Source: Cliona cf. orientalis (lineage: Eukaryota > Porifera > Demospongiae > Clionaida > Clionaidae). From it: a stretch of 64,000 bases of DNA. How positions within the stretch are numbered: position 1 is the stretch's first letter; each line of letters begins with the position of its first letter. A program made the translations under genes and the position numbers. Positions 3,901 to 62,590 of the stretch are shown here, in pieces. The DNA lies in NCBI GenBank assembly GCA_963930775.1, contig OZ005700.1, positions 5,342,609 to 5,406,608 of the forward strand. Reading direction: 5' to 3'. The notes beneath the pieces are model-generated. The model saw only the letters and a list, made by a program, of their open reading frames with translations, searched no databases and was not told the DNA's origin.

Positions 3901-6900
3901 CTCACTCTGACAGACATACGTATAGGTGGTACCACCACATTTGATTCAGTCCAGGTCAATTAATGTGAGAGCACATTATGATTGCTAGCTCAGAAAGTGG
4001 TGCTGCTCACTTTAGAGTGGTGAGGATGGTACATGTAGCATTCAGCTATACACAGTGACATAATACACAGAGTTGTCAACTACATTTCTACTCTTTACAT
4101 GTACACATACGTACAGTCTGCACGCACTGATCAGCCTTAAGATAGTTCACTGCATAGGGAGACAGAGTCTGCATGATTAACTACACACGTGTCTAGCAAA
4201 GTTCATAGAGGTCATCAATTATATTATGTACAGGTATTCAGTAGCAAATTAGCTACATGTTTGCACACACAACATCAAAATGTACACGTTTGCTTGAAAT
4301 GGAAAGTACCATGCCAAGGGCACCGTTTACCAGTCCAGTTTTTTTTATCAATGTTACAATGTAGCATGACTCGTGCACCGACAGCTAGTAATAGCTTAGC
4401 TTTCAAACCAGCTATCCTACTACATTGTACATGTACAGTCATTGTGAGCTTTTCTGGCTGCTTTTTGTTCTATTTTTGTTGACGATGTTTGGTCAACTTT
4501 GTCTGTACACTCTATTTCATGCACCTCACTGCTCAAGTGATGGAGCATTTCACTGTTGAACTGTTGCACATTTCTCTCATTGGGAACAGACACACTGGTG
4601 CCCGACCCAACTGCTGCAGCTCATTGAACTTCAGCTACTTGAATGACTCCTTGCATGCTGAAGTATTAACATCTAGTTTTGTTGGTGGGACAACCGCGCC
4701 TCACACAGTCCAGCATCGTGGCACTCCTTTGGCGTTTGTTAATGGTGAGCTCGTTGTAAACAACTGAGTCTTATATACCAAATATTAACAGATGCAGTGC
4801 ACCCCAGTTTATGCAGAAGTGCTTTTTGTGTTTAATGTGGTTCGGAGCATAGCTATAAGAAGAAATAGCTATTAATAGGTTTGGCAGAAAGGCATGAAAG
4901 TGACCTCCAGGTGACCATTACCTTGATCTATGAACTTGTGCTTGTTCCGTAAACTTTGGCCTATAAACTTTGACCTATGAACTTTGCTCTATGACCTTTG
5001 ACCTATAAACTCTTCCTTACCATTTGTTTGGGCTGCCTCTTCATGAGGCTTGGGTATGTGTAAGACTAAGAAACACCTCCAAAGACACCCCAGCCCAAAC
5101 AATCCCATCATCATAGTAAAAAACAAATAGTAATATTATATCAACTAATGTAGAATCCTCACAATATAATATATCATTTGTAGTTAATGTAGAGTCACTT
5201 GCGAATCTAATTGGTGTGTAAATCTTGTAAGCTCTTCTCTTGGGGTCCGGACATAAAGCAGGTACGCGGAGCTCTCCCATCGACCAAGCATTTTTATTGA
5301 CGCATCACTGATTCCGCACAGATGTGCCGTAGTTGCAGCTCCAATTCGGAAACTGTGGCCCGAGTACTGTTGATAGTTGACACCAGCCTCGCATAGGGCG
5401 TTTCTGACCGCAGAAATGAACCGGGATTTAGTTAATAGACGACCGTCCTCAAAGGTGAACAAGAAACCTGGGTTATTGCCCATGACGGCCAGAAAGGACA
5501 ACATGGCTGCCAACGGGCAAAGGTCATTGTTTGCTCTTTCTAGAAACAGATCCACTCCTTTTCTAAAGGGGTCCGTCTTTGAGGCCTTCAAATGAACCCT
5601 CATAATGGTTGGGGCTGAAGGATCATCTATTGCGATATCCTCGTAACTGAGGTGGGTCTCTGGATCGTACACGGAATCCGATGGAAGAGTAATCTCGCCT
5701 GACCTCATGAAACCAAAGAAACATAAGCATACTGCTGCCCATAGCATGATCATGTCATGGTTTTGCTCATCCTTTTCCCATACCAACCGAACTTTCCTAA
5801 GGATCTCGGGAGTGATAGGAAGCCTCTGGGGGCGCTTTGGGTTTTTTCGTGCCTGTTCTCGTTTGATTCCCCGCAACACTTGTTCCAGCTTGGGCATGTC
5901 CCCAATTTTCGGGTCAGGAAAGCTATTGGCAATATGTAATTGACGTAGTGATGATAGATAAGTTTTTATTGAGGAATGACACAAATTATTATTAGCTAAG
6001 TATGACACAAATTGGCAAACTTGCTGCTCTGCAGCTGGCAGAGATGTAGCTTGTGTAGCGAACAGAATTCCAGGTAACGTTTCTGAGCTGAAGCATATAC
6101 TTTGTGAGTACTCAGAGCTAAGCCATGCCGAAAATAGAAGTCCACAGTCTGATCCAGTTTGGCGACCTCCAGTCCGGTTTGTCCACTACTAAGAGATCCA
6201 GTAGCTCGGATGGGATTCTTGTGGGTGAGGGTTGAGCCTGAGGGAAGTTAGCAAGAAAATAATCTGTGTTTTTTCGAGACAGTGCATCAGCTAACGTGTT
6301 ATCGCTGCCCCTGATATGAGATGCAAATAAGTTGATGTTGAATTTTGCCGTTATGAACGATGAACACTGGCAAAGATGCATGGCCTCTCTATCCTTACTA
6401 TTCCCAGAGTTTATGATGGCAACAACTGCTGCATTATCACACTGGGCTTGCACGGTCTTGCCTGACCAGCTCTTACCCCAAATTGCAACAGCAATTACTA
6501 TGGGAATCAACTCTTTGACTGTAATATGATGCTGCTCAGTATTAGCTGACCATTATAATTGGAACCATTGGGTCCCACTGAACACCCCACAGCCCCAACT
6601 TCCCGATGCATCTGATATCAATTGTATGTCTGGGCTATCTCGTTTAAGTTGTGATAGCATGGAAACACCATTCCAACATGCTGCAAACTCATGCCACCAG
6701 TGGATATCCGATTGGGCAGATAAGTTCAGTCTAACATAGTGATCCAATCGGCGGACTGAGGAAGCCAAGTCAATCAGGCGACGAAGGAAAGATCTACCTT
6801 GCCTGATCGCTTTACATGCATGATTCAGTGAGCCAATAAGGGAGAGGAGCTCTCGCTTTTTACCAGCTTTCCTGCCTTTCCATTCATTCGTCAGCCTTCG

Positions 6901-9900
6901 CAAACTCATTAATTTTTCGTCCGGTAACTTCATTTGCATGGCCATGGAATCCAGTTCCATCCCTAAGAAGGTCAGGTGAGTTGTAGGGCCCTCTGCCTTG
7001 TCTGCTTCAAGTGGTGTGCCAGTATCCTCACAACATTGTTTTATTAGCCGCAGATTTGTTGCACACTCTGAACTTCCAGGCATACCGACGGTGATGAAGT
7101 CATCCAGGTAATGGAAAAGAGACTGCACACCCTCCTGCTCAATGATCCACTGTAATCCATCCGCTACCGCTGAAAAAATAATTGGGGCGGATCGTAAGCC
7201 AAATGGGAGCGTCATATTGACATACACTGTCTGCTTCCATGACATACCAAGGAGCAGCCTGTCTTCTGGATGTACAGGCACATTACGGTAAGCTTGCTTT
7301 ATATTGACTTTGGCTAAGAGCGCTCCTTGACCTAGCTGAATTATACGCTTGACAATCTCATCAATTGAGGTATAAGAGAGGGAGCAGAGCTCCTTGCTTA
7401 TCCCTTCGTTAACGCTATAATTGTCTGGGGAGGACAGGTCTAGAATTAACCTCCATTTACCCGGTTTATTTCGCTTGGGGATCACCCCAAATGGAATTAT
7501 GTGCACGCTGGGCTGGAAGTCCTTTGGTACTAGCGAGATACGATTCAGGTGGAATTCATTGGCAGGTAATCATCGATGATTTCTGGGTGCTGGTCGGCTG
7601 ATATCATGTTATTTTTGCTAGATCTAAGTGGTTGATTGTAATCGAAGCCTATGCGGAATCCCTGTGTAATTCCCTGGATTAAGTATTCGGTGAATTGCTT
7701 ATCCGGATGATTCCTTAAACCCCCTTTCCCAAGCATTTATCTTCAGTGGTGTAGAAATGTGCTGCATTTCTGGTGGTAGTTCCACCCTCACCAGCGGCCT
7801 GCAAGTCTCCAGGGCTAGTAGTTGCTTCGTGTATGGATATGCGTCGACATGGAAATCTGTCAGGGAACAATGTATATAGTATGAATGAAATTTACTCACT
7901 ATTAATTTCATACAATCAGATGATAGAATACCTAGCTAGTTATAAGTGGGACGTAATTTTAGGATAAGATGAGAGGCTGCTTGTGCTAAGAGCTAAATAA
8001 GAATAATATGATATGCAGCAGTTGAGTAGACTCGCAATTGAAGCTTGGAGTGACTCTATCTTCCTTGGTTACGGGGACATTGAGCCCTTGGGTGACCATT
8101 CTGTCGGCAAATTTCGCATGCATGTAGGAATTTGCAAGAGCTTCCGAAGCTGCAGTTGCCATTAAAGATTTTATATTTCTTGCAGATCGGGGGGCCTGCT
8201 TGACGCTTAGCTGGGGGCTGCTGAGGTGTTAGAGCATTTGGCCTTTTCTTAGCACCAGGTTTTAGTATGCAGCTGTCAGAGGGGTGCTCTGTAGAGTAGC
8301 AATGAATACACCATCCCTCCTCTGTAATTGCCATACCATTAAAGCATTCAGCATATAGTCCCGGATCAATCTTGGACCAATCGGTATTGCCACTGTCTGC
8401 TGCTTCCTGGCGAAAGTTCAAGTCATATACCACCCATGAAGGCCACTTGTACCTTGCGCTTGCCTTGGCAATTGTAGCCAGATAGGCCATAAGGCTGGGC
8501 ATCCTCTCCGGGTACTTGGTTGTAACAATGGCTGAGAATATTGAGAAGCATTGGCACCATGTTGATAGGTCTGTAATGAGGCGCTTAGTCTGCATCAATC
8601 AGCTGCCTGGATCAGAACCAACTGTCCCTCAGCTGCGGGAAGCTTGCATCTACCTTTGGCTGGTGGGAGTTCCGAGAAATCAATATATCGCCCCGCCAGG
8701 ATATGCTCTGCCAATTTCTTGGTCACCGCTGGCAGACCAGGAGCTGAAGGAACAGTTTGTATGAGAGCTGGTTGATTAGTGGATCCGTTGCCCTGGCTAA
8801 TGGTTGGCAGGGTTTCATACAGGATTTTTTGTTAGGGGGGGGGGAACTATATTATGTCGGTCCCCCCCCCCCCCCCCCCCCCCCCCAGGAATAAAGAATT
8901 GCGTCTTAGGCCTATTTTGATCAAAAATTAGTGCTGATAGATTGTGGTTGACAAATACATACCCACTAAGTAAGTGTGAAATTAGTGCATATAGATTAAC
9001 TTTCCCAAATAGTGCACAGACTCGATATTAGACATTTTCAAACAGTCAAACCGACAAATTACTCTTTAACCTTAATTTAAATCTTGGTATTTGTTTATTT
9101 AGTATTGTATATTATTCTAAAATTTCTCAATATTTTAGGGGGGGGGGGGGAAATCCCAGGGCACCCCCCCCCCTCTAAATGAAACACTGGTTGGTACCAG
9201 AGATAGTGCATCCTGGACCAGTACGGACGGGGCTTTAGGAAGGCGGTTGACAACATTTATAGCATCTGCATTTGGCAATTGTCCAAGTTTAATGCCTATC
9301 AGTGTGTGTAGAGGTGTGGGTGGGAGGGGAGAGTGACATTAGAATTGGTGCAGTGGGTAGAGGGTCGTCAGTATTATTTGTGTGGGGGAGTGGGAAGGGT
9401 AAAGGGTCCCCATTAATCATTGTGCTTAGCTATGCAGTGAATGCTGCACCCCTGCCGTGGGTGCTTGCCCCGCTTGAGCTGTGCATTTTGGCACCTGTTT
9501 GTTGTGCCACCGACTTCCCTTGCATTGCTATCTGATATTGCTGCTGTTGTGCAAGACCTCCGCACCCCAGCTGTGGGTGCCTGCCCCATTACATTCCTGC
9601 CATAGATAGTGATAACCCTGTAGTATTCTTTATAATGTTAGCGCAGGATTACTCTGGATTTTAAACCAAGGTGAGAGAGAGAGAACGTTCCACGATGTTT
9701 AAGATGGACTCAGCAAGTAAATCACATGATCCAGTCACATGACACAAAACATTACAACACACCATGCATACATACATTACAATAGTACTCAGTACATAAA
9801 CATAACTAAAGTATAGTTCACTACACTCCTCCTCTCTTAGCTACAGCTACTAACAAATCTTAATAAGTAAGAGTGTTACAGTTACTGTCCGAAACGTTCA

Positions 9901-12900
9901 GGTGCTTGTCGAATTCGACTCGAGCGCCGCAGCATAGGGGGAGCAGGAACAGAATCATCCCCACCAGGCTCGTCAATCGCCGGTTGCAAAACAGCAGCTT
10001 CGCTCGGAATCGCATCTGCCCAATCTGGCACACTCTCTTCAACGTTTTCCACTCTCGGACGGAGGTGATCTACATATCTGCGTTTCTGCTCACCATTCGC
10101 TAGTTCCACGGTATACGAGACAGGTCCTCGCACCCGAATCACAACTCCAGGGATCCACATAGGTCCTTGGCTGAAGTTACGTACATGTACTAAGTCACCA
10201 CACTTAAACTCACGACTCCTGGCGTGATGGTCATGATGAAACTTCTGCTGCTCTTGACGACCCTGCACTTTCGCTTGCATGTCTGGTTGCAGCAGATCCA
10301 GTTGTGAACGGAGAGGTCGACCAAACATCATCTCGGCTGGCGAAACTCCCGTGACTGTCTGTGGAGTCAATCGGTACTTAAAAAGAAACCCCATTGGTCA
10401 ATTTCCTCAGTCTATCCTTCATTGTCTGAACGGCACGCTCCGCCAGCCCGTTGGATGACGGATGGTATGGGGACGACGTAACATGGCGAATGCCATTCCG
10501 CTTGACGAAATCAGTGAACTCGCTACTTGTGAAAACGGAACCGTTGTCCGTGACCAACATCTCTGGCAACCCCAACGTGGCAAATGTATTCCGCATCTTC
10601 TCAATCGTGGATTGTGAGGTTGCTGATGAGACAATGTGAATATCCATCCACTTAGTGTGAGCGTCGACCAAGAGTATAGGAACATGTGTCCCATAAATGG
10701 ACCTGCATAGTCTGCATGGACCCTCGACCAGGGTCGCCGTGGCCACTCCCATGGATGCAATGGTGCCGGTGCTGGATTCTTGCGTGTAGACTGACATGCT
10801 TTGCACGTTTTCACCTTTTGTTCGAGATCTGCATCAATACGCGGCCACCAGACGTACTGACGGGCGAGACTCTTCATCCGGGCAATTCCTGGGTGTGCTT
10901 CGTGTAGTTCACACATCACCTCTTCTCTGACTTGTGGCGGAACGACGACTCTTCTTCCCCAAAGTAAGCAACCGTCCTGGATGCTCAGTTCATCCTGGCG
11001 CACCGTAAATGGCTTCATCTCTGGCTCTGCGGATTCCGGCCATCCATGTTGCACACATTGCTTGATTTTCGACAGCAGAGGATCTCGGCTAGTCAGTGTC
11101 CGAATTCGGGATGCTGTTACTGGTGTCAAGTTGAGGTGTTCCATCAGTTTAATAGTCTCCGGTGGTAGCGGTACTTGAATTTCGCGAGAAGGGAGAGGTA
11201 AACGACTGAGTGCGTCTGCATTGGCATGTGCAGGACCAGCCTTGTATTGGATGTGATACTGGTAGGCTCCGAGTAGTAGAGACCAACGCTGTAGTCTGGC
11301 AGACGCCATCGGTGGATTGGCTTTCGACTCGCTCAGTATACGTAGCAGTGGCTTGTGATCTGTGAGGATTGTGAACGGTCGGCCATAGATGTATTCATGG
11401 AAGTGCTTGATGCCGAAAATAATCGCCAGAGCCTCTTTATCCAATTGCGAATAGTTCTGTTCTGCTTTGGTTAGAGTTCTCGAGGCAAAAGCAATGGGCT
11501 TTTCTGAGCCGTCTCCGAGGCGATGAGACGAGACGGCACCCACTCCATATGGGGATGCGTCACAAGCTAGCACCAGTGGTAGTGCACTGTCGAAGTGAAC
11601 CAGTAGCTGGGATGATTTCAAAAGCTTCTTTACTTCCTCGAACGCTGTCTCCTGCTCTGACTCCCATTTCCACTTTACGTCTTTCCGTAGCAGCTGGTAC
11701 AGTGGAGCAAGCACTGTAGCAAGATTTGGCAAAAATTTTGCGTAATAATTTACCAACCCGAGGAACGACTTAAGTTCGGTCTCATTTGTCGGTGCTGGTG
11801 CTCCCGTGATCGCAGCTGCTTTCGCTTCGGATGGTCGTAGTCTTGTGCTGTTGATTACGTGCCCGACGTACTCGACTTCTGACAAAAGGAAGAGACACTT
11901 CTCTCGCTTCAATTTCATGCCTGCTTCTTCCAGCCGCCTCAGAACCTCTCCTAAGTTGTGTAGATGCTCCTCATCGTCCTTGCCAGTCACAAGAATATCG
12001 TCTATGTAGATGCACAATGATGGCAGGCGCTGCAGCAAGGATTCCATGGTTCGCTGGAACAAAGCAGGCGCGGAAGCAACGCCGAAGGGAAGTCTCTTAT
12101 ACCGAAAGAGCCCCTTGTGAGTATTCACTGTAACGTACTTTTGTGACTCCTCCTCAAGCTCAATCTGTTGATACGCATGCGATAAATCCAATTTGGAAAA
12201 CTTCTTGCCTCTGGCAAGTGATGCAAACATTTCCTTTATCTTCGGTATGGGGTACACTTCTGTTTTCGAGACTCGGTTGACGGTCAGCTTGTAATCTCCG
12301 CATATCCTCACACTACCATCCCGTTTCTCTACAGGCACGATTGGCGCGGCCCAATCTGAGAATGTGACTGGAGCTATGATATCCTGCCTCTCCAGTCTCT
12401 CCAATTCTAGTTCGACTTGGTCACGGAGGGCGAACGGAACCGTGCGTGCCTTATAGAACAAGGGTTTCGCCTGTGGATCGACATGCAGCTTTGCTTTCAT
12501 CCCTTTGAGTGTTCCCAATTCATCTTTAAACACCCCCTCATGCTGCTTGAGAAGGCTCTCGAGAGACTGCTTCACTCGTACCGAGAAAATTTCTTGCCAA
12601 TTCAGACGAAGGTTCGTAAGCCAGTTGCGTCCCAGCAGGCTGGTTCCCTTTCCTTTCACCACCAATAATGGTAGCTGAGCTTCCTGTCCATGGGTCTGCA
12701 CCTTTATGTCGATGCAGCCGAGCACGCCAATCTCCTCCCCCGTGCAAGTGCGGAGCTTCACGGTTGTCTGCTGTAACTCTGGAAGTGCATCAGATTCCCA
12801 AAGCTTCTTGTACGTCATTTCACTAATTAGTGACAAGGAGGCACCGGTATCCACCTCCATGCACAATTCCTTCCCATCCAGCTTGACTCTGGACTGTAGT

Positions 12901-15900
12901 GGTGTGGACGACGATTGCTGCTGAACGACCGGGTACAACGTGTACTCTTCTGGCAGGCTTGCTTCCTCAACGGTGTGAATTTGCTGCTCTTTTTTCTCCT
13001 TCTTCTTAGTGCGGCACATTCTTGCAGTGTGGCCCGTCTTGCCACATGCGCGACATTTCTCTGTTTTAAAACGGCAGCGGGATGCCATGTGTTTGCCTCC
13101 ACAACAATAACATGACAAACTATTCTTGGTGCCTTTGGCTGCACCTCCCTGCCCTTGTTGTACCTTGTTAACTGGTGTTGGCAGTGGAGTGGCTCCTCCC
13201 TGTGTATCCTTTATGTCCTTCGCTGCTAGCTCCATAGCTTGGGCCAGCTCCTGTGCCTTCGTGAAGGTCAGCTTGTCCTCTGCTAACAAGCGATGCTGTA
13301 TGCGGGAATCGGCGATACCACACACCAGTCTATCCCGAAGCATATCTTCCAGAGTGTCATTGAAATTACAATGTTCCGATAGCTTACGCAATGCGGCAAC
13401 GTACTCTGCCACGGTCTCACCAGGTTGTCGCACTCGAGAGTTGAATTTAAATCGCTGAGTGATTGCCGAGGGCCAAGATATATAGCTCCACTAACTCTGT
13501 GTATGACAAATCAGTAGCCGTCTTGGGGGCCACCAAACTTCGAATGAGTCCATATGTTGACGGACCACATACACTCAGGAAAATCGCTCGTTTTTTACCA
13601 TCGTCGGTGATATCATTTGCTGTGAAATAGTGTCCAACTCTCTCTGTATATGCCGTCCAGTCTTCGGCTTCTGGTTTGTACTCTCCTACGCTTCCGTGCT
13701 TTGCCATCGCGTATTTTGGTAGGGTCGAGCCTCGTCGCCAAAATGTAGTATTCTTTATAATGTTAGCGCAGGATTACTCTGGATTTTAAACCAAGGTGAG
13801 AGAGAGAACGTTCCACGATGTTTAAGATGGACTCAGCAAGTAAATCACATGATCCAGTCACATGACACAAAACATTACAACACACCATGCATACATACAT
13901 TACAATAGTACTCAGTACATAAACATAACTAAAGTATAGTTCACTACAAACCCTGCACGCATTAATGCATTCTGCTGTGCCCCTGCCGTGGGCCAAGATA
14001 TATAGCGCCTGCCAGGTCACCTCCCTGCTGTGGATTGTGACATAAGCATTATTAATAGTACCCCTGCCGCGGGTACTGCATTGATTATGTCGCCCCCTGT
14101 GGCCGCTCCAGTCACATCCCTGCTGTGGATAGTGACCTCCGCATTATCACCCCTGCTGTGGGTTTCTGCCCCTTTTTTATGGCACCCCGCTACCGCCACC
14201 CTTGCTTGGGCCAGACTTTGCTGCTGCTACTGCCTGCACCCGTTTGCCTATAACTGCCTAACCACACCTTTTTTGTCACACCCATGCGGGTGGAGAAGGT
14301 GTTTTATCATACCTACCTTTGGTTTTTGACGATGAGCTGGACTCAGCGTCGCCGCTCGTTTGCGTTTGGATTGCTTGGATGAGTTGTTGAGCCAAGGCCA
14401 GGACGTGTTCGGAAGTTGTGGATCCACTCGCACCCGACCCGCTCGCCCCTTCTTTCCGGCTGTCTCCTTTGACGAGTCATCGGGAGGGGCAGGTATCTTT
14501 TTCGTCGGGTCAGACGGGGGTACCGGGTCAGACATGGCGATGGAGGGCCAGATTGGAGGAGATTGAAAACAACTGAAAGAACTTTGTAAGTGACCGGCAA
14601 GCAGTTATCTGCAGCATGTGCTCATCTCACGTGAGCCTTAGCTGTGCCCCCTGGAGGCCACGTTGCACAGGCTCCTCCCCCATTAACTCCGTTTAATCTA
14701 CGATTAAACTCCATGATATTTTGAAATACAGGATTTCCGTTAATTGATTGTAGTTCAAGTAGATCTCCATCAAATATCATATTCCTACAACACTTCAAGT
14801 CCAGTTTGCAAGATTCTCTGGATTTCCTGTAGTACCCATAAAATAGTCACCTTGAGGTAGTTGACGGCTCACTGTGACTATGGGTCAATTGATTTATAAC
14901 AACCATTGTCAGACCTACATACTAGTTATTTCAGACGATCATTTTTCTTATATACCCGGTAGTCCGTGTCCTAACCTGGAGGGCATAAAAGATGCGCTCT
15001 GCTACCAATTAAGTTCAGAAGGCCCATGATTGGTCAGAATTGCAGTGCCGTGTGCACAAACAAGGGTAGCCATAGAGCTAAACGGCGCAAAGCGCCACGC
15101 TTCAAGAGGCTCGGCAGGCCACAGAGCCTCAAACGAATTCGCGAAGCAAGAGACGAGGTCTGTTTTTGGACATAGTCTGGTGGTAGATTTGACCATTGCA
15201 GTGAGCAACTGCTGTTGATCTTGCATCGAGGGGTGTGGTCTACGAAGTAATAGGTTCAAAGTTCGTGCTGCTGCATGCGGACTGTACTAACGTTTGACAT
15301 ACATACAGCATACAGCTAGGGAGATGATAGATTTTCTCTGAGTATGTGAGCTTACTGTGAACAACTCATGCATGTTAGCCACATTATCCCATGATTGTAA
15401 CATCAAACATACTTGTTGAAATAAATCATTCACTGTCGCATTTATTCACTGGGAATTCTCTGTCATATCGACCATCATTACAGTTTTTAAGGCAGCCTTT
15501 GTACATGTAACTTGTATATTTTATTGGGGCGAGCCTGAGCGAGCCCCACATAAACGGTACATCTATGCGCGAATTATATATTATTATTATGGTACGTCGG
15601 TCACGCGAAATTATATTCCAGCAAGGCTCTATGGAACATAAACGCGAAATATTGTATTGCGCATTCTCGTGCCTGGGCTACCGGCCGTATATACGCAGTT
15701 CTAATTTAGCGAATTTCAAATTTACACCAGTGCTTGTATTGTAAGATCACAGATCACAGATTGATGATCGAGCAAGCTATTTACCGTACCGCACCGAGGA
15801 GGAGAGAGCGAGACAGAGCTCGTCGTCAACTCGACAGCGCAAGGACCATCTAAGAACACAATAGAGATAGACATGCTGCATGCTCATTGACTCTGACAAC

Positions 15901-24264: not shown

Positions 24265-27200
24265 CTGTTTGTGTATGCACATATCAAGAGCAGACACTAG
24301 TAGCAGATTAGGAACTGTAGAGAATCCATATTATACTTTTATAGCCACCACAACTGTAGTTAACCCTTGGCGTATGTGTGAGGGTTACAGTAGTCATTAC
24401 GTGTCAGTCTTAACTGCTACATACCCAGGGCCATAGGAGCTGGTCGATCTTTTGGTATTAAAAGTTGGTAAAGATTGTTGGTGTTATGTGTATATTGCAT
24501 GCCCCCAGCAAAGCAATAGTTGTACTATGTAGTCACAATCTCACCACCAATGACGGGCCTGACCACTCAAAATTTGTCTCCTACGGCCTTGATACCTGAT
24601 TTTATATGTTAAAAACAAGGTGCCATTAGGCTTCTTATCGCATTTTCAACTTGTGCATTGCGTGGACTTCATTGAAAACACTTTGTTCAAAAGTTTTAAT
24701 GACATTTGCTTGATGAGCTCTCAATGGATAAAGTTAAGAGACAGTAATCACTTCCTTTCCAGAAGACTAGTGTGTAGGTATAGTGATAGTTCTTATAACT
24801 GGACTGACTGGTCACAGTAGATAATCAACTACGCTTCTTGGCTTTACTTTCTTAGTGTGCACTAGATCCATGCACATGGTTCATGCAATTGCATTCTTGT
24901 GGTTACTTTAGTCTGTAGTAACAATTGGCTTGGGTTGCAAAAATTGCCAGTATACTACATGTGTATTTGCAAAAATGTAGGCTAGCTATTGCATCCTGCT
25001 GAGGGTTTGCACAATAGTGCTTCACTGTTATAGCTCTCATTTTCCTTACCCAAGTGACACAACTCTAAATTTGGTTGCTTTCATAATGAATTAATGGAAA
25101 AGTATTAATTATTACTACACAATTTGTAACATCTCATGAAATCAATACGATCTTGAACTTTTATGCCCCTGCTCCTATTAACTGAAGTTACAGTAGCCTG
25201 GTACAGTGTTGATGAAACACACATGCATAGATAGATGGACCGTGCATCTTAATGATTTATAGATGGTTTTTTTTTTTTTTTTGCTTTAATACCAACCCTA
25301 TCTGAGCCTCCCAGCAAAAATTACAGTAGTTATTACCCTGGGTTCTCAATCACCAGGCCACTTCCACTAGTCTGCATGTAACAATAACTAGTGGTGATGA
25401 AAATCATCTGTGCGGGGCGAGCCTTCGCGAAAATCAAGATCTCTTTGAAATCATAAAGGCATGGAGCTGGTGTAGTATCATGGTCAGTCAGTTGCACAAG
25501 CAATAGCATAGCTAGGCCTAAAAGCTACCTTGAGAGTGAAAGCATTATAGATTGCTAGTAGTCCAATAATGTACACTATAACAGTGTAGTCTACATGCAT
25601 GCCATGACCGGCCATCATGAGTCCTGTAGCTAGACTACACTCCATGCAGTCTTCATGCTCAGAAAAGTAGATCTACATGTACCAGTGATGTTAATTGTGG
25701 ACCCGAGCCTTCCCAGTGTAGTCCAGCACTCACCTTTTCCAGCTTCATGCCTTTGCTAATACACTGGTCAAGTCCTCTCAGTACATGTGTACCCGCAGCT
25801 CGAGTGCAGTGCGGAGTGCGCGCGCATGCGCGTGACGACCATTACCTAACGCATTCAAAATTTAACTCTCTCCTCACAGAAATGATCACCCCACAAACTA
25901 GTCTCGTCCCCAGACCCCACCTTCGAGGAGGAAAAGGGTCTGGTGAACTTGGGCAGAATCCTTGGGCCTACGCTGAGGAATTTCCACGCGCCAATGAGAT
26001 CATAGCTTTGGCTCAGTCATATGACAAGCTTACCGCAAGAATGCAACATCGCTATACCGTCTGTATAGCTATTCAATTTCGCCGACCAATCAGATTCAAG
26101 GTTTGCTTTACTGCCGGTTGCGGGCAGGCGATCACATGCAAACGCAGCCATAGCGACCAATCAGAACCAAGCTTTGCATGGCCTTGTCAGCACCTATGCG
26201 CATGCGCCGTAGAACGAGAACCGAGGATTCAGCCCAAATTCACCAGACCCTTTTCCTCCTTTTGGGGGTGGGGTCTGGGGACGAGACTACCCACAAACAT
26301 ACAAGAATAATAATTTATAATAACATGAATAATAATAATTAATTCCGAGCGAAGCGAGGTCTCTACTCGGGCTCGAGTGTCTTCGTACGGCTTCTGGGCG
26401 TATATCTCGCGTGCGTCTAAATTTTCTTTCTTACTCTCTTCAGCGACTCAGGCCACGTCCCCGGGTGCTACTGCGTCAAAAGTTGTGGGCTCCCTCAAGA
26501 TGGTCATGCAAGGCCTACAAACTCTACGTTTCAGCTGGACTGTGCTTACCGGGTAAATGATGTTCGCGCGGCTAAAAATGATCGCACCTTCTTGGCCCAA
26601 AGTTGTTCGTCCTGTCGCTGATGGTAAAGATGTTGCTACCTGTGGCCTGACTCATGCAAAGGCTAAGATCACACAAACATGGTGTACTTGCTTCCCTATA
26701 GTAATATTGTATTTATTGCTGGAGCACGGTTATATAAGTCCAGAAAAAATTTTTGAAGTAGCTAGTTCCATGCATTAAATTTTTAATCTTAAACAATGAA
26801 TCATGAGGCAAACCGGTCGCCATGGTATATGTATAGTCTCATGCCAGCCTCTGTCCCCACGAGATTAGTTAGCTAGGTGGCATTGATGAAAATTAATAAC
26901 TACCAGGCCCTGAGGGCTCTAAAAAAAAGAATAGTAACAAGTATAAAAAACAATTGAATAAAATTGAAGGATGAAGTAGGGATGGCAGTGCCAAAAAATA
27001 CACAAACAAGATTCGTAGGGATAACGTATCACATCCACTATACATCCCTACGCTTGTTTTTGAGTAGCCATGCACACACATAATATTGTATATGGGGCAC
27101 ATGCATGCAGGAATGGAAAATCAATACTGTATACCCAGGGATCAATATCAATAGTAGTGACACTTTTAAATTACATGCTGAATCAGATGTGTATGAGAAA

Positions 27201-45200: not shown

Positions 45201-48200
45201 CACCACTCTACAGGAATTAACTTTAATTATAGTTCATCGTCATATATCTATATAACTATGACACACTGACAGTTTTGAAATTATTAATTTTATGAAAGTT
45301 AGAGTGGAACTGGAAATGGTAAATTGGTGTTTCACTTTACAGTTTGCATCAAGAGTATATGCTGGAGCTTGGAAAGTGATATAGGCTCGATATGTACTTT
45401 GCATGAACACCTCTGACACAAAATATATAATCTGAACATTATCTATTATACTAGTGTGATGTACTTCATCATGAGGGCGAGCGTTTGTGAGCTTGTGTGT
45501 GCATGTGTGACACACGTAGCTACGCATAAATTATGCAAGTGATATCACGATGTCGATCAGCATGTGCGCATCTTGGGTTCTATATGGTTCTGGCCGTCCT
45601 TTTGTCCTTTCCAAGGCTTAACTACTTAGCAATGGACTTGTAAACATGAGTCTGTTAGCAAGCAACAAGCTGGAACGTGCTAGCTGACAAAGCTACTGTG
45701 ACATACTTATCCATTCATTCGTCACTTCCATCCCATTCCCCGTTGCTGTCTTAATTCTCTGTCTAGTTCGTTCTCTGTAGCTAATGTTGGCCTTTCTTCC
45801 AGAATTTTCGATCTCCTTTGACTCTGATATTTCAGCATGTGCTAATAATTGGTAAAGAGGTGTGGCACAATAGAGAGCACATTATTTTCGTGCACATTCT
45901 CAGTCAGCCAAATTGGATACACGGACAGATGGACAAACGGACAGATAAACTTCGATCTGGTGAATGATCAAATGTGGGGCTCACTCGCGTTTGCCCCCAA
46001 ATAGTGCCATAATATAGACAAAAAAAGCTCGATTGTTTCAAGTGAGCACAGTTTGCTATGAACTCCAACCCCTACCTAAAAATAGTGTGCTATTTCTGCT
46101 ATTATATGCTATTGCATCCTCTAACCCCTAGCTGGTGTGGAATTTCTGCCATTACACATACTGTTTCACCCTCTAAACATGTACCTTTATCTAGAAATAC
46201 TGCCATATTTCTACTCAAGTACTAAGAAATTCATTCATCAATAAGGAAGGTACCGGGTACACCTGAACAGACACATGATCTACTGAATTTGAGGAGTAAG
46301 GGACAAAGAAACTAATGTCACCTACACATTTTTAGTGGAGTCTAGTACGACACCGCATCTCAAATGTAAATCTGTTCACTCATTCAGCTAAAGTGACCAA
46401 TAAGCTATTGACATGGAAAAGGGAAAAAATATATTGTTGTGCTTAAAGAAAAGATTGAAAGCCAAAAACAGTGATCAGTGTCAACAATATTATATAGAAC
46501 TATCTAACCTAGGGAAATTGATGATTCTAATGGAATGCCCCATGGAGGAGATAAATCCAATACCAGGCAGTTTTTGGAGAAAAGATACAACTACGTTCGC
46601 TGGCTATATGAACTGCCAGAAATTATCATAGAGTCAGTAGACTCTATAGGTAGGGATGGCACGGACAACTCCATATACCGTACCCTTGCGAAAGAGGGCC
46701 CACTACGGAATGTCGGCCCACCCCCCACTTTGGGCTCAATTTCCTGCTAAGGTCTAGTGTTTACTCGAATATATACATGCGCCCATGCGTAGCTGCCCTT
46801 GAAAGCGCAGCTCAAATGCATGAAATGGCTGGACTGTACTTCGAATAATCTATGTAAGATCGATAAGTAACGTGCTAAACAACCGTAAAACTAAGCCTAG
46901 CTAACTTTATGCCACGTTTCAGCACAAATAAATGCTAGCGATCGTAGCCACGCCCACTGAATACGGCTGCACTCAACGACACACGGTGAAGTATCGCGGC
47001 CGCCCTTGCTCTGGATTGGAAACCGTGCTTGAATAAGGCTGAAATCAATACTAGCCGCTGCTACTATTCAAATTATGAAGCTAGCGTGGGTAACTTACCT
47101 GGGCGCTCTTTCGAGTATAAACGCGATACTGATACCTCGAATATCGGCCCACACCCCAATCTTGGCCCAATGCAAGGTGCACCGCCCATGGGCCCTCTTT
47201 TGCGAGGGTACGTTATATGTATGTAATACAATATAAACACCCAAATATCTCAAAACAGCTGGTACTTGTGGGTGGTAATATAGGACACCAGATTGTACCT
47301 TGCATTGATCTGATGTTGTCAACGAATTTTAAATCTGGTGTTTTGTCAGGGGCGTAGCTTAGTTGTTTCTTTGTTGCCCGGAAACTCCCCCTGGCAGTCA
47401 GATTCAGTATTATGTTAGTATGATTTAGCCATCAGGAAACCCCCTTGGTTTCCAGATTCAATGTGCAGGCACTAAAATCTCCTGAAACTTAGCCTAGATT
47501 TCCTCCCTTTGTGCTTTTCCCTGCCAAAATCTCGAGCCAGTTGTTGCTGAAAATGGCCATCGTTAATTAGAGGGCGTGGCCAAAAAGTGGGCGTGGTCAT
47601 TAAATTTTTCGCGCACAACTCTTAGGAAACCCCCTCAGAAAATCCTGGCTACCCCCCTGTTTGTTGTCTGTAGGCTGGTGTTGTTGGGCATAATTACTTG
47701 TTGGTTGGTATTTCACTACTGTCTCTTTAGGTTGTCAATGATCTTTGCCCTGTGGCCAAGGTACGTGGATAGTCTGTTCATATTTTCAGTGCTGGGTCTC
47801 ATAATTGCAATCTTATTAATTTTCATTTCGTGAGTCTCGTTTATGGTGATGCTGTGCCCAGGACATCCACTGATGCTGGCCACAAACTTGCCTGATTGGA
47901 GTTACTCTAAAATTTCTTTAGGCATAACTAATAGATCTGACAGGTGTTGCACAATGAGCTTTAGTCTCGCAAGCCACACCCCCCAATCCGAGAGAAAGAG
48001 GGGTCTGGTGACCATGCGTACAACGAGTTGTTCTAGCGGAATGCAATAATTGCTCGCGGGAACGTATACGTGACGTAATAACCAGCAACAAATGTTCGCG
48101 GGTACCGGGCAGAATTGCGCGCACAGCGCGCAGATCTATGTAAATTGTGCGCCTCAGACGCTTTATAATAATAATATTAACCGTTGCTGGCTATTTGCAC

Positions 48201-51200
48201 GCTTGTTCTCTTATACTAAAACGAGCTAATCATGAGTCACTGCCGTGGATGTGGAGTTAATCTCGATGATATATGCAGTAAGAATAAGCATACTTTATCA
48301 GGAACCCAGGGTGGACCCATTTGTCCAACTTAGACTGCATTTGCTGCTGATGCTGTGAGTGAATCGCAAGGGCCTGAGTGTCAACTGGATGAAGAAGAAT
48401 TTGCAGGAGGATATGTTTGCAAAAGTTGCCTCAGATTGCAACTTAAATTCCAAAACCTTCAGACAAAAATTAAGCAGATTGAACAGGAAATTTCAGAGAA
48501 ATTGTCGCTAGCAGTCCATCATTTACCCATCAACACCAGTACAGGCATTCAACACTCTCCAGTTGCAGGTAGATGCACTCGAAAAAGATCAGCCACTTCT
48601 TTACACCCAAGAGAAGTAAAGATTAAGCGCAGGCGACTTCTTCAATCTGTTGAATCTATTCCAATTGTGTCCACAAGTAAATCACCAGATGTTGCAGTAA
48701 GTCAATCATGCATTATTACTGTGTACTTTCCCATCATAAAATTACCATTATTGTAGGTAACCATGTTCTACAGGAGTGCACCAAAATCATACATTATGAC
48801 TCCACGACGGAGACAGTTGTGTAGGCCGTTAGCAAGGGGAAGCCGACATGCTTTTGCCGGGAAATGTCTCAAGGATCGTTGTATACGGAACATAATTGTC
48901 AAAGGAATGGGTGTATCCTTACGTCATGAAATTGCTCGGCTTTGTCCTGATGATATAGCATCCATTCTTCAAAGCAAAGATAGAAGCACACTTAAGGAGT
49001 TTACAGAAAAATTGCTCACAGAATTGGAAGAAGTAGCTCCAACAGTGCTAAAATTGCTTCAGAATTGCACCAAAACCAGAAAGCTGAGGAAGAATCATAA
49101 TGCTATTATTGGAGTGCTTGTTGCCATTATGTGCAAACACAGGAGGCCAAAGCCATCCTTGTTCCAACAAATTGTTTCGCTCATTCTCTACTCGGGGCAT
49201 GCAGCTAAAAGGGTATGATATTACGGCTAGGGTGGAATGTTTAATTTCCCATATTGAGCAGCTCAGCTTTTGTACATATGAGGACCTATATAATAATTAT
49301 TGTAAAAGTATTACATCTGGTGGGAATACTAACTCAATTATAGGCTCAAAAATCACGGCATATATATCTACCGGGCAATCCTCCCCCTCCCCCCCCCCCC
49401 ACACACACCCAAATTTAAAAGGTTTATGATCGTCTTCAGAAAGTTGGATTATGTTTATCTCATGGAAAAACCGTCAAGCTTGTGGACAGATTGGGCTTGG
49501 GTTTTGATGAAAACGTGATTGAATGGAAGATGGAAGTAGAAGCTACCATGAACTATGACAGTACAGTAAGTAATTTTGAATACTTGAATATTATGGTTAA
49601 CATCATTTTTTGATAATAATTATGTGCATGCAAACACTTACGCCACAAACTCAGCAGATTTCCAATAGAAGTGCTTCACTACAACCCCAATAGAAGTGCT
49701 TCACTGCTTGTAGGTGGTCAGAGCTTAGAAGAGAGCTTCAATAGTCAGGCATCCCTATCCCCATCCCACTCTGATGTCCTTGAAGTTCAGCCAGGGATTC
49801 ATCAACAGCTACCAATTTCTCCTATATCCATCAAAATTGTTAATGACTCCCCAGAGTCTCCAAAATCAAGTAGCAGTGATTCATCAGCAACTAATAGCTC
49901 ACTGTCTCCTGATAGTGCCACACTTACTCCATCAGAGGTGTCTGCTGAGTCATCAATAGTATCACAACCAGAACATACATCAACACCTACTAAATCTCAA
50001 CATCAGCTTGTAGCTGCTGGTACATGTGCATCCAATGAAGGCGAGCAACCAGCTACTTGTAGCCCAGTTCCAGGATTCAAAATGGTGATTGATAACATTG
50101 ACAAGACTGTCAAACCAAGAAATCAAACTACTGATGCACAAACTCAATCCCTTCACTATGTTCAAGTGTATGCTGTGAAAGATCGAGTTGACTTCTCTCA
50201 ACTCTCTAATACTGCACCTTCCCCCGGTAGATCAATCTACGACATTTTACCAACTACATCAGAGTATCAGAAGCTCAAAGAAAATTTTGCCATTCTTGTT
50301 GCTCATATCATAGTGAAGCATATCCCACAAGATTTCAGTGGTTTGTTGGTGAAACACATCCCACACAAGTACAGTTCAGAAATGGCAAAAAAATCAGAAG
50401 TTGTAAGTTGGTGACTAAATTTTAATTATTGGGGAATTAAATTTACATCATTGTAATTGCATAGGTTCCTCTAGGAGTGTTACCATATAGTGAGGTCAAG
50501 TATGAAGATATGATCAAATGCCTTGAGGATATTCAAGTGTATGTACCTTCTACGGACATTGAGAGAGAAGTAACCGTCCCTAGTAAGTCAGGTCCTGATA
50601 CTGTTATGAAGATTAGAGATCAATAACACAAGATGACACTGGTGGGGGGAGATCAGCTCACTGTTGCTCGAATGCGTGGAGCACAAAGGATTCGCGGTAA
50701 CTCAGAGACTAGTCAACAACGCCTTGATGAATTTCTACCAGTCGTTGAAGATTGGCATGCCAAAATGTGCTTCCTTGAGGTTAATATTAATTTTATTAAT
50801 TATCCACGTGAGATCTTAATTTACAATAATAATGTACATGTGTTAACATATAGGTGATATGGAAGAGGCTATACAGGACCAAATCTGGAATGGAGAGAGG
50901 GACGCTATACCAACTAAGAAACTTGATAAACAGAAGAAATGTTGTCAAGAAGGTCAAGAACGATATGAATGCATGTGAAGACTTTTTTGAATTAGTAGTG
51001 ACTGGACATGTTGTCTCCTGTGCCATGCAACTCCTTGGTATGTCATCCATTGATGAAATTCCCTTGTCCACGGTCATACAGTCACCAGAGGATGCCTGGA
51101 TGAAGGATGATTCAGAGAGAAAATCCATCCTAATGGAGGTAGCAACACTCATAGTCGAGCAAAATGTTGATTTGTCTACAACCTTCTCCGACTCACAGTC

Positions 51201-54200
51201 CAGTGAGTTAGCTAGACAATCTCATGCAGCTGACAGTGTATACGCCTACTCCTGTGAGGTTTTGAGCTTAGGACTGTTATTTCTGGAGTTCAAAGATTCT
51301 ATCAGGCTGGGAGATGGAGATCGTGATTTGATAGTTTGGAAGTATTTCCTGCTCCTATTCAAAGCCTCCAAACGAACCAACTACTCCATTGAAGCGTTTA
51401 CTCTCCTCTCTCAGTATCATTTGATTTTGGCTCCACATCTGGCAGAGCAATTGAAGTGGTCTAGATTCATTAACACCTGTGGTCTGTTGGGTCACAATAT
51501 AAGCTGTGATTTACATATGGAACATCTTAATACGTAAGCTAAAGTAGCGATAGATGGACTGGGAGCAAACAAATCACAGAAAGCAATACAGAGAATTGGA
51601 AAAGCAATTGGAACATTGACAGGTACACTTGACAAATTTGACACAGCAAACAATGTTCCAGATGTGAGTGGCCACCACTCAGTGAGAAGGACCTATGCAG
51701 AGTAATTAACCAACTAGTGAAGTCAGAAGTTTTTGATACAAAACCAGGAAGAACCCATAAGTCGTTTCCTAATATGAAAACTAACTCAATCAGGACTCTA
51801 TCTGAGAAGGAGCTAAAGCAATGGATGATTGATCAATATGCAACAGTACTCTTTGAATCGAAGCCATAATCATAATAATTTATGAATACAGTATTGTGCT
51901 ATTATTGGCTGAGCTGCAAAATAAAAGTGTTAGTCTACCTATCATAGTATGCATGCCCAAAATAAAAAATGTTACGATTTCTCTCACACATAGTACACGT
52001 ACAATCCTTCCTACAGATATCACAGCACTGACATGTCCCCATAGTGGCCACACTTTGACAGTTGTCGAAGTCAGAGAATAGTATAATCTTCCTACATTGC
52101 TGGTCTGAATTTGTACAATAATGCTTCATTTGTTCTGAAGTACGCTTCTTAGACAAATCGCTTTTTCCATAGAATAGCAAGGCACAAGAAAGAAGTCCAT
52201 CTCGCCCGGCTCGTCCAGTTTCCTGTACATACGTCTCAACATCTTCCGGAACTCCCCAGTGTATTATCTGCCGTACATCGGGACAATCAATTCCCATACC
52301 AAATGCTATGGTTGCGATTATGACACGTGGTAAGGTAGATGAGGATGTAAATTGTGTAAGTATCTTATCCTTCACTGATTGGTCTGTACAATGAGTGTAC
52401 ATGTCTACTAGGCGAAATTGAGTCAAATCAGGTGCTCCTGGTGGATCAGTAAATCCATAGCCTAATTGTTGCTTAAAGAAATAATAAATATCTGTGACTT
52501 CATCACAAGTTCGACAAAAAATGATAGTTCTCCCCATATCTGTCCTTTGGTGAGCAAGCCTGTCGCAAACTGGACCAAGAGAGAATGCAATGTTGAACTT
52601 GTTGGATATGGTATAAAATATGTTGTCCTTGATGGGTGGAATAGATACAATAACGGGTTTCTGCATATCCAGAGACTTAATTATTTCAGCTCTCGTGCTT
52701 TTAGTAGCAGTTGCGGTCAGAGCCATAACATGTACGTTTTCCGGGATGATACTGCGCACCTCTCCCAGCCTGGAGAACTCACGACGAAAGCTGTCACCCC
52801 TATTGTACATTCAGAAAAATAATTATCATGAAGCTACACAAATTATGTCATGATTTGCTAACTAAGTTGAAATAATCCAGCTTACCATTTCCTCACACAA
52901 TGTGCCTCATCCACAATGAAGCCAACAAGATTCTCTCTATAATGATCTCTTGAAAGCATCCTTCTCCACTCAGTGGACAAAAACAATGCCTCCGGGCTTA
53001 TATACACAAGCTGGCATTCACCTTTTACAATCTTTCGTTTTGTTTCTTTATCTGTACTTTCTTTATCACTGACATATCCCGAAACGATACCCTTCTCTGC
53101 GAAAGATGATGACTGATCTTTCATCAAAGCTATTAATGGTGACACTATCATAGCGATGGAAGTCTTTTCAGCAAGTCGTCTCTTCTTATCAAAAACGGAT
53201 GGCAGCAGAGCATAACATAAAGATTTGCCATACCCTGTTGGTAGTGAAACGAATACGTCATTCCCTTCAACAAATGCTTTTATAGCCTTCTTTTGCTCTT
53301 CTTTTAGACAGGTGTATCCAAGGGAAGCGGCAGCTTCGACAACAATTCTCTCGATCTCGGCCATTGTGCGATATGCATGCACGCGCGCGATCATCGCAAA
53401 TAATTGTCGCTACAGTTTTACGTGTGCTTGTTCATTTGCGCGTGCGCAGATGATGACATAACGCCAACAGATTCAAATCTCAAATCTGATTGGACACGAC
53501 CAGTTTTGGTCGCCAGAACAACTCGTTGTACGCATGGTCACCAGACCCCTCTTTCTCTCGGATTGGGGGGTGTGGCTTGCGAGACTAAATGAGCTTTTGG
53601 TAGTGTGATGTGGTCTATTAAAAGCAAAAACAATGCTGCCATTTCCTTGAGGGATGCAACACGTAGATCCCATTCACGCATCCTTAGTGCTAAGTATAAC
53701 GTTAAAAAATATTGAGCAATCTCGAAGAATAATTAAACTGGCCCCAGAATTGCCAATTTTCTTTCTTTGATCCCTTAGTGGTCATGAACGATACACAGTC
53801 GGACTACTAATTGTAGCCTTCAGGTTGTGTTTGTGTCTCAGTATTTCGTTTTTGTTGATGGCGTGGTGGAAGATCGAGTGCCTAGCTCCCATACCTCAAA
53901 TAGGAATGTGGTAGTATTGGTGAAGTTTGAGCACCTACATGTACTTAGGCTTGTCAGTGTTTCTCCCCTGTAACTACTGGCTGCAGCAAATAGCTTCAAT
54001 TCAGCATCCCAATAGGCATTCATGAGCACTTTCTGGTAGAGGCGCATTAAGTGGAAATCCCCAGGAATGTTATTACCCAATCAAGAACCTCCCCATACTC
54101 GGATTTTAGTTGGATATCATATGATTATAGGTTTTCTCATCACTAGCAACTAGTAGGGTACTTTACAGCTGAGCCAACCTGAAATTTATGGTGGCCCAGA

Positions 54201-62444: not shown

Positions 62445-62590
62445 AAGTCTCGCAAGCCAGCCCCTCCTATGCAGAGAGAGAGGGTCTGATGAATGAACCT
62501 ACTTCCGTTTGTTCCATTGGAATGTACATTACATCAGTTTATGTGACGTATCCTAACTGCAATGCGTTTCGCGATGATATTAGTAAGTGC
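62445..62590 (+). mobile_element. Degenerate end of a DUF6589/RecQ-family element
   Basis: AGTCTCGCAAGCC, then GAGAGAGGGTCTGATGA, then a GGAATGTACATTACAT...GTGACGTA block. These align in order with the left end of the 47962 element, including its subterminal GTGACGTA. No matching right end was seen before 64000, so it is truncated or runs out of the window. Confidence 0.6.

Follow-up and report, generated by a model that had tools for sequence, protein, structure and literature searches.

Which protein moves a transposon whose only two recognised genes encode a protein of unknown function, DUF6589, and a RecQ-family helicase, and what would the helicase do there? The question is raised by a locus of the sponge Cliona cf. 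orientalis, in a stretch of 64,000 nucleotides of contig OZ005700.1 (assembly GCA_963930775.1, positions 5,342,609 to 5,406,608 of the forward strand), here called the window, in which a transposon of 5,626 bp occupies positions 47962–53587. We read it as a cut-and-paste DNA transposon of the AcademH type in which DUF6589 is most likely the DDE transposase and RecQ an encoded, co-inherited partner, and we put the probability of this reading at about 0.88.

Structure of the element and its two genes

The outermost letters of the element are TAGTCTCG at its start and CGAGACTA at its end, and the terminal inverted repeats (TIRs) of 73 bp, at 47962–48034 on the forward strand and 53515–53587 on the reverse strand, are perfect inverted copies of each other, as a first-pass annotation of this locus had stated. 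Each TIR abuts one copy of a 9-bp target-site duplication, AATGAGCTT, which lies outside the left end at 47953–47961 and outside the right end at 53588–53596. The space between the TIRs is filled by a DUF6589 gene on the forward strand and a RecQ-family helicase gene on the reverse strand; this convergent arrangement, also described earlier, is confirmed by Pfam matches and by the opposite strands of the two genes.

The DUF6589 gene (PF20231), which probably encodes the transposase, extends by our reading of the sequence from 48232 to 51869 on the forward strand. Its N-terminal part contains a CxxC...CxxC stretch, and the exons that carry the three acidic motifs (D, D and E) follow on the same strand. 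The first conserved acidic motif (DNID) lies in an exon stretch with approximate limits 50073–50402; the second, LVGGDQLT, lies together with DWHAKM in an exon at 50465–50779; and the third, DLHMEHLN, comes after a long stretch in the open frame at 50854–51537. PF20231 matches two exons of the gene with E-values of 2.4e-11 and 4e-27, and the search with this profile, which had been proposed with the annotation, also gave matches across the genome. The annotation missed that the gene is broken: there are in-frame stops at 48331–48333, at 50624–50626 (TAA, in the exon of the second motif) and at 51535–51537, where the third frame ends, and by comparison with the contig 13 sister copy the frame shifts near 51680. 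Owing to the three stops and the frameshift, no intact protein would be made from this copy as read.

In the RecQ gene, both exons are open. The 5′ exon (52882–53394, reverse strand, open frame of 170 amino acids) encodes a DEAD domain with GYGKS and DEAHC (Pfam E-value 1.4e-19), and the 3′ exon (51935–52810, reverse strand, open frame of 291 amino acids) encodes a Helicase_C domain (2.3e-17) and a Cys-rich tail. The best NCBIfam match of both exons is recQ_fam (TIGR00614), each single exon scoring under the whole-protein cut-off. The nearest relatives of solved structure are WRN, RecQ and BLM, and the WRN alignment extends through the Cys-rich region, including CCDxCR; the DEAD domain, the Helicase_C domain and the RecQ-type Cys-rich zinc region by which a RecQ helicase is recognised are thus all present. 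No RQC or HRDC family was matched by the window proteins in the Pfam and NCBIfam scans, at E-values up to 1 and 0.001.

Pairing of DUF6589 and RecQ genes across the genome

The genome searched comprises 216.8 Mb. With the PF20231 profile, 102 of 338 candidates were scored, so the at least 122 matches, clustered into at least 102 loci, are a lower bound; with the 3′ RecQ exon of the window as query, 134 of 287 candidates were scored, giving at least 136 matches at at least 119 loci. At 72 of the 102 DUF6589 loci found, a RecQ match lay within 5 kb, and all 72 pairs were convergent, against a chance expectation of about 0.6 pairs. The possibility that the other 30 loci are devoid of RecQ was rejected. 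Two of them, here called L069 and L070, were fetched, and both hold a more diverged RecQ-like gene, with a Pfam DEAD match in L069 and a Helicase_C match under its cut-off in L070; when the L070 helicase served as query, 27 of the 30 were paired, again all convergently and with a widest gap of 2.4 kb. In total, a RecQ-like partner is found within 5 kb at 99 of 102 DUF6589 loci, always in convergent orientation and across two deep lineages. Conversely, at least 95 of the 119 RecQ loci are paired with DUF6589, all convergently, and the remaining 24 at most (both counts among the matches listed) include, in our reading, apparent host RecQ genes with long frames, short fragments and truncated copies. 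The co-occurrence proposed in the first-pass annotation is therefore found in this genome, and its view of RecQ as a dedicated partner is borne out by this pairing together with the co-divergence of both proteins described below.

Two observations concern contig C1. Six RecQ-like fragments of 60 codons with the same match span (C1:23015288, 24681735, 27984410, 30411849, 30799107 and 37086992), beside which no DUF6589 neighbour was found, are probably part of another repeat. The contig also carries 45 of the 102 DUF6589 loci (27 of the 72 paired and 18 of the 30 initially unpaired) and makes up 37.5 of the 216.8 Mb (17%).

Movement, element ends and short copies

When the two flanks of the window element are joined, they match 8 other places of the genome end to end, beyond the flanks themselves, at 85–87% identity; 5 of these 8 junction-spanning loci were fetched, and all 5 have an empty site, uninterrupted and with a single AATGAGCTT. 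The empty sites show that the window element inserted into one member of a dispersed repeat family. On contig 13, a sister copy of 5,646 bp is 96% identical to the window element and has a 9-bp duplication of its own, GACAACCTC. Over 6.3 kb, the copies on contig 5 and contig 15 share 99.97% identity, and their target duplications differ, which shows that the two-gene unit has moved recently and in one piece.

The ends were inspected at 16 two-gene loci, each represented by about 7 kb of sequence, namely the window, 13 merged stretches (the contig 13 copy included), L069 and L070; the loci were picked from the better-scoring matches, save L069 and L070, which came from those first listed as unpaired. 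In the 13 merged stretches, the position of the ends could vary by as much as 12 bp, and an exact repeat of 7–11 bp was required. TIRs with an exact duplication of 9 or 10 bp were found at 13 of the 16 loci: the window, 11 of the 13 merged stretches and L069, whose TIRs are perfect over 97 bp. The element starts with TAGTCTCG in 12 of these 13 and with TAGCCTCG in L069. Further loci with TIRs of the window type and both genes inside, as anticipated in the annotation, thus exist.

Short copies are also present. A 292-bp copy used as query returned at least 40 near-complete copies of 88–100% identity (40 of 360 candidates scored), one of which ends at base 275. In the four short copies inspected, about 90 bp are common with the left end of the window element and 123 bp with its right end, the middle of about 80 bp has no match to it, and in three of them the 9-bp duplication is exact. 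In a tally of 17 elements, made up of the 13 two-gene elements and four short copies with an exact duplication, this duplication is 9 bp in 16 and 10 bp in one; a fifth short copy, L008, whose duplication matches at 8 of 9 bases only, was excluded from this tally.

The window contains a second, non-autonomous element of 391 bp at 25899–26289. It starts with TAGTCTCG, its two TIRs of about 66 bp are 89% alike, its target duplication is the 9-mer CCCACAAAC, and its interior shows no clear similarity to the main element. At 62446–62492 lies what is apparently one end of a degraded related element, about 80% similar to the TIR over the first 49 bp of the latter.

Co-divergence and selection on the two proteins

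The protein distances of DUF6589 and RecQ are correlated, with a Mantel r of 0.83 for 19 non-redundant pairs that is reached in none of 10,000 permutations; before near-duplicates were removed (27 pairs), r was 0.93. The two protein trees have well-supported groups in common: the window with the contig 2 copy; C1_7236827 with C3_5347375, joined by C13_7716154; and C1_34145035 with copies on C4 and C9. No strongly supported conflict between the trees was seen, many inner branches being unsupported. Among the 40 closest pairs listed, synonymous sites are saturated in both genes in pairs diverged by more than about 23%, save for one DUF6589 value, and the conservation of the proteins beside such saturation indicates that both genes are kept by selection. 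The ratio of nonsynonymous to synonymous divergence (dN/dS), obtained for close pairs only, is 0.34 in both genes between the window and contig 13 copies.

DUF6589 as candidate transposase

In the motif DxxxEHxN, the D, E, H and N are invariant in all 21 DUF6589 rows, which come from both lineages and include near-duplicates. For the two upstream acidic sites, the two corresponding exons of one copy were aligned with tblastn to the retrieved loci, without requiring the motif; all 25 distinct matches have D at the first site (DNID), and at the second (GGDQLT) D is present in 37 of 41, some of the 37 being one place seen twice. This arrangement, in which three acidic motifs are set apart from one another and a long insert precedes the last, is what a DDE transposase of the hAT or P type looks like. 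In addition, the spliced DUF6589 protein of contig 5 covers positions 12–410 of the 410 of PF20231 with an E-value of 2e-54. As DUF6589 is the only other gene recognised in the moving elements, it would be the transposase by elimination too. The conserved motifs and this elimination together suggest that DUF6589 is most likely the DDE transposase of the element, its conserved D, D and E residues presumably being catalytic. The acidic triad had been guessed to lie around GDQLT and DWHAKM: GDQLT fits the second D, and DWHAKM is a conserved neighbour of it, but neither marks the first D (in DNID) or the E (in EHLN), which lie elsewhere.

Several observations weigh against the reading of these loci as AcademH elements with a DUF6589 transposase and a co-inherited RecQ. 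The second D is replaced at two places of the genome, each seen in two overlapping loci, by Y (L038/L052) and by S (L024/L058), and L070, of the second lineage, has GN at this site; part of the copies with a replaced second D look decayed. When a profile of the part of DUF6589 that contains the E was run against the sequences of proteins with solved structures, no match was found at E-values up to 10, and comparison of these sequences with the spliced protein gave one weak unrelated match (E-value 0.21) and no transposase. At three of the 102 DUF6589 loci (C1:13015693, C1:22577135 and C1:35459794) there is no RecQ-like match within 5 kb, and at three of the 16 two-gene loci (C13:1836040, C9:5215100 and L070) no TIRs with a duplication were found within the stretch inspected. 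The dN/dS of RecQ is 0.91–1.00 in close pairs with C1_15660083, a damaged, stop-bearing copy. Finally, the placement in AcademH is drawn from described features, and a relation of DUF6589 to the Academ transposases is presumed.

A search for DUF6589 relatives in viral contigs gave 32 pattern matches, none of which was confirmed. In the literature searched, no mention of DUF6589, IPR046496 or PTHR24401 was found, and the string PF20231 occurred once, in an optics paper; as far as this search reaches, the link between DUF6589 and AcademH does not seem to be in print.

Proposed mechanism and the role of RecQ

In the mechanism that we propose, the DUF6589 protein would recognise and bind the TIRs, for which its Cys-rich N-terminal region may serve, excise the element and join it to the target with a stagger of 9 bp, the length of the duplications observed. 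RecQ would then act on the broken donor site, displacing strands, so that the gap could be refilled by synthesis-dependent annealing with the sister as template and the donor copy regained; interrupted gap copying could also produce the many short copies with both ends kept. The donor-gap role of RecQ is the weakest part of this explanation and is proposed tentatively, on the model of BLM after P-element excision; among the possible roles of RecQ we give it well under an even chance. It has been reported that flies deficient in BLM repair excised P-element gaps poorly, with flanking deletions (PMC8951532). Taken as a whole, the proposal has DUF6589 as the AcademH transposase and ties it to a RecQ specific to the transposon, the two genes co-evolving as one obligate unit and RecQ mending the donor gap from the sister. 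The element would then be self-replacing without host BLM; we rate this full reading at somewhat less than an even chance.

The tight coupling of RecQ to the DUF6589 gene would also agree with a helicase that works in the transposition reaction, where it might open the TIR ends, peel off one strand along a copy-out route or take part in integration. We hold this to be only a little less likely than donor-gap repair; against it, the clean 9-bp duplications, the empty site and the precise ends resemble ordinary staggered integration, replication intermediates being invisible in sequence. That RecQ is a captured host gene, a mere passenger that contributes nothing to movement, could draw on the RecQ-like loci beside which no DUF6589 neighbour was found, some of them fragments or truncated; it is very improbable in view of the pairing across two deep lineages and the matching trees and distances, and because decay or loss is what one would expect of a passenger, whereas both proteins are conserved despite saturated synonymous sites.

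A different rival concerns the class of the element, which could be sought in KolobokH, of another superfamily with a RecQ gene. Kolobok target duplications are TTAA, whereas those found here are 9 or 10 bp long and not TTAA. The RecQ of KolobokH is expected downstream of the transposase domain, while the window RecQ is a separate, convergent gene, and membership in KolobokH is extremely improbable, even though KolobokH encodes RecQ as well and in one case, from a rhodophyte, has it on the complementary strand (PMC9587614).

The recent, near-identical copies in one genome make the function of the helicase testable. A Pfam family of unknown function gains a likely identity, DUF6589 being a transposon protein in this genome and probably the AcademH transposase. 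The suggestion that annotated DUF6589 and RecQ-like genes are transposon genes holds for genes of this sort in this genome; if the two genes do form an obligate unit, the DUF6589 genes annotated in invertebrates and a share of the small RecQ-like ones would be transposon genes too. It may be necessary to mask gene models of both kinds as transposons when genomes of this sort are annotated.

Other elements in the window

Two retroelements lie elsewhere in the window on the reverse strand. At 5184–8598, retroelement frames with a reverse transcriptase (RVT_1) stand beside a putative tyrosine recombinase, which gives a DIRS-like appearance; the recombinase-like frame is our own reading and has no Pfam match at 0.001. 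At 10419–13490, an open frame of 1,023 amino acids contains protease, reverse transcriptase, RNase H and integrase zinc domains and is Gypsy-like.

Comparison with known systems

RecQ-bearing transposons of the kind pointed out in the first-pass annotation have been described before. PMC3627910 cites Kapitonov et al. for a set of proteins that includes RecQ helicase in Academ, which was in print by 2013; the likeness to our element is one of description, a RecQ encoded by an Academ DNA transposon. The AcademH lineage, from animals and fungi, is the subject of Kojima (2020, Mob DNA 11:15). AcademH gives duplications of 9 or 10 bp and AcademX, of the same superfamily, 3 or 4 bp, a difference related to the encoded helicase of the former and nuclease of the latter (PMC10045372). 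Our assignment to AcademH is made because of the encoded helicase and the 9- or 10-bp duplications; the elements studied here have such duplications, TIRs and a helicase besides the presumed transposase. KolobokH is alike as a RecQ-bearing DNA transposon, with RecQ on the complementary strand in the rhodophyte Kolobok-1_CCri, but belongs to the Kolobok superfamily, and the window element differs from it in its 9-bp non-TTAA duplications and its DUF6589 gene. The element therefore seems to be of a known kind, to which the present analysis would add DUF6589 as the likely AcademH transposase.

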